Notes under the pieces: generated by a model | What the model was told of the DNA's origin: nothing | The model's input: only the letters and a program-made list of their open reading frames with translations | Database searches by the model: none | In this document: one piece after another, positions 50,724-59,406 of the stretch | Numbering within the stretch: the stretch's first letter is position 1 | Layout: every line of letters starts with the position of its first letter | Position numbers and translations under genes: made by a program | Assembly (NCBI GenBank): GCA_001584585.1 | Contig: LSYV01000004.1 | Span: forward strand, 2,415,128 to 2,479,127 | DNA from: Gonium pectorale | Taxonomy: Eukaryota; Chlorophyta; Chlorophyceae; Chlamydomonadales; Volvocaceae | Direction: 5' to 3' | Length of the DNA: 64,000 bases

Positions 50724-51380
50724 CTAAGCCTTAGGCGGCGGCGACTTCCGCCCTCTCCGTGGAGGTGGCGGTGACGGCGGCGGCGGCGGCGGTCGGCGGC
50801 GGCGTGGAGATGGCGGGTCCGGCGGCGGCCGCCTCGGGCGTTTCGGGGACTTCGGAGGGTGTATAGGCGGCGTGCTTGCTGGCGGAGAAGGGGAGGCGCC
50901 AGCAGGTGGGCTGGACCCTGGATACGCTGGTGCCGGCGAGGGAGGAGAGGGTGCCTGGTCGCTGGAGTTCCGTGGTACGGGAGGGGGCTGCAACATAGGA
51001 GGGGGCTGGGAAGGCGAAGGCGCCAAAGGTGACGGGAATGGCCTTGGAAGAGGCGGCCGACCGGTGGACGGAGCTGGAGGAGAGGGGACAGGAGACTTTG
51101 TGGGCTCCGGGGATCGTGGGGGAAGTGGAGACGGCGGCCGGGGACTAGGCCTTCGCACGTTGGGCACCAGGGGCTGTGACGGGGGTACGGAAGGTGAGGG
51201 TGCCGATGGAGAGAGAGCCACCTGTGGCGGCGGGCTCAAAGGCGGCGGGGATGCTGGAGCCGGCTGTGGAGGTGGCGGCGGAGACAGCGGCGGGGGCGGC
51301 GGTGGTGGCGGTGGAGACTCAGGGGGCGGCGGTGGTGGAGGCGGAGGTGGGGACCACGAAGGGCGGCGGCGGGGGTGGCG
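50724..51380 (-). other. Pro-rich open frame continuing out of frame after the gene's first stop
   Basis: Directly after the stop at 51319-51321, and overlapping it in another frame, an open frame of about 215 codons encodes PPPPPES, SPPAGASPS and similar Pro-Ser repeats, ending PPRRGRKSPPPKA. The repeat style is that of the preceding tail, so this is most likely the real C-terminus reached through a one-base error or true frameshift near 51350-51400, where runs of up to seven G occur. A 47-nt GT-AG segment at this point would also keep the phase but is shorter than usual introns. Confidence 0.6.
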
Positions 51381-57300: not shown

Positions 57301-59406
57301 CAAGACCACCAAGACTCACACGTATAGCGGAGTGCATTGAAGGGCGGCGGCGGGGGGGCCTGGGATGGCGCAGTGGGCATGGGGTTTCCCCCGCTGTACC
57401 GCCAACGCTCGATGGCCCTGTAATGCTGAGCGGTAATTGGCACCCAGATGGAGGTCGTCGTGCTGCCAGTGGGTTCTCCGGTGAGCACGCCGATGATGCT
57501 GGAGTCCGCAAGGTCCATGACGGGGCCCCCCGACTGGCCCCCCACGACGTTGCACCACGCGGAGACCTGCGCCAACCCGTGTGCGGCAAGTTACCTCAAC
57601 TGCCAAGACCCACGTGCCAGGTGCGCAGCCGAAGACATACCATGGCGCCAGGTTGGCAGGTTGAGCCGCCGAAGGAGAAATCACAGCACCATTGGTACCA
57701 ATCCGCCAGGTTCAGGTACGTGGCATAGGGCGGTTCGGCCTTGTCAATAGGGTAGCCACAAGTAGTGGCGCTGTATAATTTCTGTGGACAGGCAAAGCAG
57801 GTGTACGGGAGGCTTGAGATTTTCGTCAGCTGGGCACATAAGCCGTGCGAAACACAGGGTCATAGACATGCAGGCTGCCTGGTATGGCACTCACCGCAGC
57901 GCAGTTGTATTTGTAGCCCATGTATGAGTGGTACGGCAGGCTGGAATCCGGACTCAGCGTTGTGACACGTATCATGCCAATGTCAAAGTAGTTGACGCTA
58001 GATGGCGCATTACCCGCAGAGTATTCAGCACGGTACCAAGATGAATACAGTGCCGTGTACGTGCCGTACGGTGTGCTCGAGCCGTTCATAGCTGGTCGTA
58101 TCTGCGGTACAGCGGACGGGCAAGCAATTTCAGCTGGCAGCCGCTAAGCTTGGCATACAGTCAAGGCTTTACGGTGCGTCAGCCGTTCGAGAGGCACAGC
58201 CAGACCGGACGCGCCTACATTCTTGCTCCTGCACTGCACCAGCACATACCCGGTAGTCACTGAAAGGTTGCCGTACGCCCCAGTCCGTCAGGCAGTGCGC
58301 CGCCGTCAGGATGTCGTACCCGGACACCCAGGTGCCCGAGCAACCTTCGGCCGCCGTCCCGCTGGTCGTAAAGTACATTTGGGCAATGGCGTTATTGGGC
58401 CAGTACTGTGTGCTTGTTGCTGGGTACCGCCCGTCCGCTTGCTGAAGTGAGCGAGCCGCGCGCCCCCCATGGAAGCCCTCCTCGCCAACCAGCCATCGCC
58501 GCTGCCCGGCGTCATTTCGGGATCCATCCTTTCCGGGTGCAGGTGCCTCCTCCGAAGCCCATGGCTCCGCCTCGGCGTACAGAGAGCCGTCATGGTACAG
58601 ACGGAAAGACCGGTACACAGGTGCACCCGACCCTCCACCATCGAAGGACTCACTGTAAGGACATGAGAGGCAAAGGGGCAGCTGTATTGCGATCACGGTA
58701 TGCTTGTACGTCCAAGAAGCATGATCCCATGATGTGCTGCACTAGAGTGACCAGCCCTAAAACGCTCAAGCTGCAAACATGCCCCTACTCCCCCCCCCCC
58801 CACAAGCAGGCCTGAAACTTTGTGGCGCACCTTGCTCCTTCTCCTAGGGAACGACGAGCCCTCCTGCGTCGTTCCTGCTCTTTGGGGCTCGGAACGCCTG
58901 CGAAACCCATGTCGCCGGCATGTCCCATGTACATGTACCCCTCCTCCCGGAAGCGGTTTAGAGTCTCCCGGGAGGGCCGGACTCCGAGTGTCGAGGCCCC
59001 TGTGAAATTTGCGGCGACCCACAAGATGGTTTAGCAGCTCGCGCTTCACTTTTGTCGCTGCCGGGCAGGTCGCCCACCTGACGTACTGTCGGTCGCCCTT
59101 ACGAACAGGATGTCTGCAGTGGGTGCGATCGAATAGTGGGCAGAGGTCACAGGGCTCAAGCAATATCTGGGGCTCACCGTCGCATGCCCCTTGGGTGATG
59201 GTTGTCAGACCCTGGCACGCTGCAAAGCAGGCGTTCTGTACCGTCAGCACACCGTTGGCACATACGGGTTGCGCCTCCAAGGGGCACAGCTGACATCCGA
59301 CAGCTTGCTGCGCAGGGAGTAGCTCTGATGTCCCCAGAACCGCGAGTCCAAGGAGAAGTGGTACCAGTTGCTTGAAAAATGTTACTCGGTGAGATGTTGC
59401 CATCAC
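51319..59406 (-). CDS. Secreted Kazal - trypsin/V8-like protease - 8xSRCR - Pro-rich mosaic protein, 22 exons
   Basis: Exons (high-low): 59406-59178, 58999-58831, 58652-58250, 58101-57895, 57781-57641, 57566-57320, 57238-57143, 57073-56934, 56572-56386, 56293-56215, 56124-55981, 55900-55764, 55673-55514, 55416-55193, 55121-55003, 54911-54636, 54534-54432, 54293-53782, 53700-53647, 53351-52892, 52815-52400, 52089-51319. All phases agree (5,274 nt, 1,757 residues). It begins with a signal peptide (FFKQLVPLLLGLAVLG) and a Kazal-like domain (CQLCPLEAQPVC...CFAAC...AC). Next comes a linker shared with the paralogue (RFREEGYMYMGH here, [13 protein letters not shown] there). The protease follows, with triad motifs LTAAHC, YFDIGMI and GGQSGGPV. 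Eight SRCR domains come after a very short Pro run, then a Pro-rich tail. Predicted extracellular. Function inferred only from domains. Confidence 0.88.

Follow-up and report, generated by a model that had tools for sequence, protein, structure and literature searches.

Two genes on the minus strand of a 64-kb stretch of the Gonium pectorale genome (contig LSYV01000004.1, positions 2,415,128 to 2,479,127; this whole stretch is referred to as the window) encode proteins in which a signal-peptide-like start is followed by a Kazal-like domain, a serine protease domain and a battery of SRCR domains, with long Pro-rich sequence in addition. This order, put forward in a first-pass annotation of the DNA, is borne out by the spliced exons of both genes, which hold eight SRCR domains in gene 2 and, by eye, six in gene 1. 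Judged from exon models, profile matches and comparison with relatives, the Kazal-protease-SRCR architecture is real and conserved. The signal peptides of both genes were judged by eye; that of gene 2 is a hydrophobic stretch directly ahead of the Kazal-like domain. The long Pro-rich block lies between the protease and the SRCR domains in gene 1 and after the SRCR domains in gene 2, and the two protease domains are 39% identical. Exons of gene 2 were read one by one and then joined, from an ATG at 59403 to an in-frame stop at 51319, giving 22 exons, 21 introns that are all of the GT-AG type, and a product of 1762 residues. Gene 1 runs from an ATG at 21622 to a stop at 13342 and was read as two pieces, with one frame change near 19250 in its Pro-rich part. 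The limits first proposed for the genes fit these models, except that the end of gene 2 at 51319 is probably too short: by Pro content in each frame, the Pro-rich tail switches frame near 51340 and extends in a different frame as far as a stop at 50724, so that 51319 is unlikely to be the true end. A long Pro/Arg/Lys-rich tail likewise ends the Volvox africanus relative P0002. Both frame changes sit inside CCG/CCA-rich repeats (50724-51340 and near 19250), and may be assembly errors, introns or mutations.

The catalytic His, Asp and Ser motifs that had been picked out (LTAAHC, YFDI and GQSG) were located in both genes, LTAAHC, NYFDI and GQSG starting at 58309, 57993 and 57539 in gene 2 and standing at 20140, 19957 and 19744 in gene 1; among the 16 relatives described below they recur in 16, 16 and 15, respectively. 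The domain had been labeled trypsin/V8-like, and the first half of that label holds to the extent that the isolated protease domains of both genes exceed the Pfam Trypsin cut-off of 20.6 bits (25.6 and 30.2 bits); the whole gene 2 protein falls just under it (19.3 bits), and Trypsin_2 stayed under its cut-off of 27.6 in every scan of the two genes, whether of the whole protein or the protease alone. The closest solved sequence is glutamyl endopeptidase 1p3c (E = 4.7e-17), which also ranks first by fold, with a tie with Deg2 and V8 in one program. On these matches, the proteases are nearer to the V8/glutamyl endopeptidase group (S1B; 1p3c, 1qy6) than to trypsin proper. They differ from glutamyl endopeptidase at the S1 site, where the His of the 1p3c motif G-V-H-N, which we take to have a role in Glu specificity, is replaced by Leu in genes 1 and 2, and by Leu, Val or Ile (by eye) throughout the 18 sequences that cover the site, leaving aside a gene at locus C51 considered below; the Chlamydomonas incerta model Cinc_001705 does not cover the site. 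Because genes 1 and 2 are without this His, Glu specificity is not predicted for them, and the enzymes are best termed S1B-like rather than glutamyl endopeptidases. NCBIfam returned no family for two of the proteins, P0001 and P0010.

The N-terminal domain is less readily recognized. Single-sequence Pfam scans gave no significant Kazal match (gene 2, E = 0.17; gene 1, no match), and the gene 2 domain scanned alone reached E = 0.023, still below the cut-off. A profile built from five family members, with C51 left out, matches leech-derived tryptase inhibitor (LDTI) at E = 1.3e-7, and the top 14 rows of that search are Kazal inhibitors by name or by identity, two rows bearing only the name AAEL006007-PA. 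When the profile was enlarged by four domains of the SRCR-type proteins and the canonical domain of C51, rhodniin (2.8e-10) and LDTI (1.2e-9) were matched at scores helped by C51, with charybdotoxin in the weak end of the list. With E values of up to 1 admitted, seven of the ten family domains match Kazal_1. The six-cysteine spacing occurs at two places in the six-frame translation of the window, exactly those of genes 1 and 2, at none in 20 mononucleotide-shuffled windows, and 1 and 3 times when the residues of each N-terminus were shuffled 200,000 times, counts that are post hoc since the pattern was derived from these same domains. Six cysteines so spaced are found in genes 1 and 2, in two further loci termed C330 and C51, and in six database proteins; C330 and C51 have one additional residue, placed either ahead of the third cysteine or in the gap separating the first two. 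The cysteine spacing is near-identical to that of LDTI, a non-classical Kazal inhibitor. LDTI is a free inhibitor with a P1 residue that is presumably Lys, whereas the algal domain lies inside a protease precursor and has L, S, V, G, D or E at P1. Since the family profile reaches LDTI and its top rows are Kazal inhibitors, the call stands despite the single Pfam scans, and on profile and spacing evidence the N-terminal domain of genes 1 and 2 is a non-classical Kazal-like domain. Of the refuting outcomes named at the outset, a profile search lacking a significant Kazal match would have overturned the idea on single-sequence Pfam scans, but does not do so with the family profile.

Between the Kazal-like domain and the protease, nine aligned N-termini (eight of the SRCR type and that of C51) share two conserved motifs, and all nine have Arg-x-Leu directly before the protease. 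The D of the sequence DGR aligns with chain residue 6 of 1p3c, and lies five residues from the predicted cut in gene 2 and in Astrephomene gubernaculifera. The conserved Arg-x-Leu, following the motifs and close to a mature-type start, places the Kazal-like domain in a putatively removable prosegment; in gene 2 the predicted processing site falls between 58451 and 58450. This placement of the Kazal-like domain within a putative prosegment ending at Arg-x-Leu is new in the present analysis. It follows that any restraint would act before processing, and that the mature enzyme would consist of protease, SRCR domains and sequence resembling hydroxyproline-rich glycoproteins (HRGPs).

The SRCR domains exceed the PF00530 cut-off of 26.1 bits in both proteins, the profile matching eight stretches of gene 2 (E = 1.5e-139, 455.6 bits) and seven of gene 1 (E = 8.2e-119, 389.1 bits). 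In gene 2, five of the eight domains open at a phase-1 intron placed within the codon of their first cysteine, and four of the six in gene 1 open at such introns in our own reading of the exons, the pattern of domain-wise duplication. The parts of both genes are collected in Table 1.

Table 1. Parts of the two protease genes in the window (positions are those of the window; a slash marks the predicted cut)
Feature	Position	Strand	Basis
Gene 2: Kazal-like / S1B-like protease / 8 SRCR / Pro-rich	50724..59403	-	21-intron exon model; relatives P0001-P0006 align
Gene 2 Kazal-like domain, C-x2-C-x7-C-x10-C-x3-C-x10-C	59182..59295	-	Cysteine pattern; family profile against LDTI
Gene 2 putative prosegment motifs RF..EGY and RSFRL..DGSLYAE, end AAR/SL	58451..58999	-	Alignment of 9 N-termini
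Gene 2 S1B-like protease domain, 4 exons	57400..58450	-	Exon model, Pfam, motifs, 1p3c match
Gene 2 SRCR domains, eight	51740..57238	-	Pfam PF00530, 8 stretches
Gene 2 Pro-rich tail, HRGP-like, with a frame change near 51340	50724..51740	-	Pro content by frame
Gene 1: Kazal-like / S1B-like protease / Pro-rich / 6 SRCR	13342..21622	-	Exon model, Pfam
Gene 1 Kazal-like domain	21425..21535	-	Cysteine pattern, exon reading
Gene 1 protease domain, single exon; putative prosegment site SRR/LL directly upstream	19586..20278	-	Sequence and fold matches
Gene 1 Pro-rich block that separates protease and SRCR domains, frame change near 19250	17408..19585	-	Exon reading
Gene 1 SRCR domains, six by eye (7 Pfam stretches)	13342..17124	-	Pfam, exons

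Searches with both proteins returned 17 distinct proteins, of which one, a primate SRCR protein, was dropped. Fifteen of the 16 relatives come from seven volvocine species (A. gubernaculifera, V. africanus, V. reticuliferus, V. carteri, C. incerta, C. schloesseri and Edaphochlamys debaryana); the other, P0015, has no SRCR domain in its model. Most are labeled hypothetical or SRCR-domain protein, and one ‘Serine protease’. The closest comparison is between gene 2 and A. gubernaculifera g188, which are 61% identical across the full 988-residue query. The search for relatives with the same order, suggested at the outset, yielded the Kazal pattern in the six of the 16 whose models extend to a signal-like start; the remaining ten models begin further in and are read as N-terminally truncated, P0008 and P0016 apparently starting from a Met within the prosegment. 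The Kazal-first order is common to gene 2, gene 1, C330 and six database models from four species, and on these models the Kazal-protease family is conserved across related volvocine algae.

Further copies were found outside the window. A third Kazal-protease-SRCR gene of the same genome occupies C330:6000-13182, where the 13-kb contig ends inside the SRCR part; its introns are low-complexity and filled with repeats. C51:141000-148000 encodes a Kazal domain of canonical sequence with Lys at P1, the prosegment motifs and a V8-type protease, and no SRCR match was obtained there among the 150 of 160 candidates scored. A view of the C51 enzyme as trypsin-like, from a D six residues before the serine that would fit P1 Lys, was dropped, as 1p3c has the same D-T; C51 and 1p3c have this D-T in common, and A-V-H-N of C51 resembles G-V-H-N. 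Seven Kazal_1 matches above the cut-off lie within 2.6 kb at C30:836000-841000, probably a gene for a multi-Kazal protein, and additional groups of SRCR matches, at least 84 in all, span about 10-140 kb on contigs C9, C49, C32 and C101.

A protease tree was computed from 19 of 20 aligned rows, omitting Cinc_001705, the model of which is broken there. Gene 2 joins Astrephomene (93/86) inside a group that also includes Volvox and Chlamydomonas (100/99), C330 joins V. reticuliferus 10756 (99/98), and gene 1 falls among other Volvox, Chlamydomonas and Edaphochlamys genes at a place without support. Genes of the gene 2, gene 1 and C330 kinds come out apart in the tree; the branch of C51 is so long that neither its position nor the root carries meaning. 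With the root unsure, the divergence of the gene 2 type from the gene 1 type probably predates that of Chlamydomonas from Volvox. Locus numbers that are near neighbors (C. incerta 001701, 001703 and 001705; V. reticuliferus 10827, 10828 and 10831) suggest that family genes are clustered in other species also, as in the window. A profile of 11 full proteins (E cut-off 1e-10) returned four known members and P0018, an SRCR protein without a protease; as it missed other known members, it supports no statement on absence outside Volvocales.

Elsewhere in the window, an open reading frame at 44734-45447 on the minus strand matches the EMC1 C-terminal domain (8.6e-9), so that an unrelated gene seems to stand between the two protease genes. 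A match to the Chlamydia polymorphic membrane protein repeat at 32003-32959 (minus strand) is borderline (20.5 bits, cut-off 20.6), and a 112-bp direct repeat, 94% identical, lies at 38931-39042 and 46144-46255, 7.2 kb apart. Rfam and tRNA scans of the 64 kb gave no match.

Parts of this architecture have been described previously. The ‘V8 proteinase’ Cre06.g267750 of C. reinhardtii, published in 2021, combines an N-terminal Kazal-type domain with a bacterial-type trypsin-like domain, a pairing that its authors termed curious and for which they left the role of the inhibitor open (PMC8643629). The C51 gene looks like that type and has the prosegment motifs too; genes 1 and 2 differ, in a comparison made by description, by their SRCR battery and Pro-rich sequence, ‘SRCR’ being absent from the main text of that paper (PMC8643629). 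Putative hydroxyproline-rich domains have also been described on Chlamydomonas SRCR proteins (PMC6704257). In a survey of SRCR genes from 29 species, Trypsin is named as a partner domain, and ‘Kazal’ occurs 0 times (PMC10855680). The initial impression that the arrangement was undescribed in an alga must thus be narrowed. The Kazal-V8 half is already published; no paper on the triple combination was found in the literature searched, and older literature (Wheeler 2008) may hold it. Literature searches on SRCR with trypsin in Volvox, and on neurotrypsin, returned no papers. As to biological setting, the wall-digesting proteases of C. reinhardtii include gametolysin, a metalloprotease, and sporangin, of the subtilisin type (S8) (PMC8643629), and in cht7 the rise of wall peptidase genes is shared by SRCR genes (PMC8895990). 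Edaphochlamys has an expanded SRCR/CTL orthogroup (PMC8226300), and scavenger receptors are listed in work on mating ectosomes (PMC6919629) and on PKD2-like proteins with polyproline (PMC11015965).

Animal proteins offer two comparisons. HtrA1, 3 and 4 have the order signal peptide-IGFBP-Kazal-protease-PDZ (PMC8509474), the origin of the N-terminal domains of HtrA1 being treated in PMC5823240, and thus resemble the algal proteins in carrying a Kazal domain upstream of their own chymotrypsin-like protease behind a signal peptide; they differ in protease subfamily and in having PDZ where the algal proteins have SRCR. Pfam scans of genes 1 and 2, listed to E = 1, showed no PDZ domain. Complement factor I and neurotrypsin combine SRCR domains with an S1 protease, and the algal profile matches their SRCR domains at 2e-7 and 8.2e-31. 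A Kazal-like FIMAC module is present in factor I as well, and neurotrypsin starts with Pro-rich sequence. Both have fewer SRCR domains and a C-terminal S1A protease, whereas in genes 1 and 2 an S1B-like protease stands before six to eight SRCR domains; the algal fusion and the animal SRCR proteases are likely convergent.

The sequence supports the proposed combination of a signal-like start, a protease, SRCR domains and Pro-rich parts, and a course of events can be suggested for it. The signal peptide would export the protein, with a prosegment bearing the non-classical Kazal-like domain and the two conserved motifs. A subtilisin-like convertase may then cut at the conserved Arg-x-Leu and free the N-terminus of the protease, and the SRCR battery and hydroxyproline-rich-type sequence would retain the enzyme beside its substrates, in the extracellular matrix or wall. 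Before cleavage, the Kazal-bearing prosegment may help to silence the enzyme. We infer secretion, cleavage, anchoring and silencing alike, and consider it slightly better than an even chance that the genes represent an old volvocine family of secreted S1B-like zymogens that are convertase-activated and matrix-anchored. A more specific proposal, in which the Kazal-like domain acts as a built-in inhibitor of its cognate enzyme that can be cleaved off, a convertase-removed zymogen lock on a matrix-tethered V8-type protease with its loop co-evolving with the S1 site in each paralogue, is rather doubtful, and inhibition in cis of its own protease by the Kazal-like domain is given the same limited chance.

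Several observations weigh against the zymogen proposal. Architecture, homology and conservation are established here from sequence rather than from transcripts or proteins, neither gene is a clean single reading in the assembly, each having one frame break in Pro-rich DNA, and ten of the 16 database models lack the Kazal-like domain. The distance from the predicted cut to the D of DGR is not constant, being 3 residues in gene 1 and 10 in C. incerta 001701. The Kazal P1 residue, which we take to be six residues before the third cysteine, is L, S, V, V, G, D, E, D and K in the nine sequences and fits no single specificity. In C51, Lys at P1 is paired with 1p3c-like features, which would be a mismatch for self-inhibition; to regard this as clear-cut would be to overstate it, as the His of C51 is about five alignment columns away from that of 1p3c. 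The predicted fold of a 986-residue V. reticuliferus protein, made from six sequences, has a mean pLDDT of 32.8, at which docking of the Kazal-like domain on the active site is unreadable.

The same P1 variability, together with the weak case of C51, where P1 Lys may face a glutamyl-endopeptidase-like pocket, suits another explanation, that the Kazal-like domain is a structural or targeting module which never inhibits its own protease, any zymogen control coming from the rest of the prosegment. This is a realistic, if tentative, alternative, and the Kazal-like segment of HtrA1, which is reported to have no effect on HtrA1 proteolysis, offers a precedent and a further difference from a self-restrained algal enzyme (PMC8509474). 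It has to accommodate six cysteines kept at near-constant spacing and position in all N-termini read, and an acidic P1 accompanied by Arg within six residues before the serine in three of three sequences of the gene 1 group, vs. none of six others, a pattern that is post hoc and includes two orthologues among its three sequences. It is improbable that the freed Kazal-like domain serves as a separate secreted inhibitor of foreign proteases and the SRCR enzyme as a defense or recognition molecule: the variable P1 may resemble the product of an arms race, but no pathogen link was seen for the family, and in the cht7 mutant the SRCR, MMP and SUB gene classes rise with wall genes, which at class level favors work on the wall (PMC8895990). 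That the fusion is a gene-model artefact, with Kazal and protease/SRCR exons on different transcripts, could be argued from its reading in genomic sequence and from the Kazal-less database models, but is highly improbable, given that the Kazal-like domain and the prosegment motif MRRFADEGF of gene 1 share one uninterrupted exon (21622-21039), that the same order recurs in gene 2, gene 1, C330 and the six models, and that the published Cre06.g267750 combines Kazal and V8 (PMC8643629).

A role of the proposed zymogen family in wall remodelling or defense, as first envisaged, may be surmised. S1B-like proteases whose prosegment bears an inhibitor domain and that carry SRCR/HRGP anchors may be regarded as a further candidate for matrix remodelling, next to the wall-digesting enzymes already known. 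If the more specific proposal of a zymogen lock is true, volvocine algae would have built a Kazal-gated zymogen system from a bacterial-type protease, a Kazal-like domain and an SRCR/HRGP anchor. The lineage serves research on multicellularity, and its family of proteases would offer natural material for testing whether Kazal domains can form a zymogen lock in cis.
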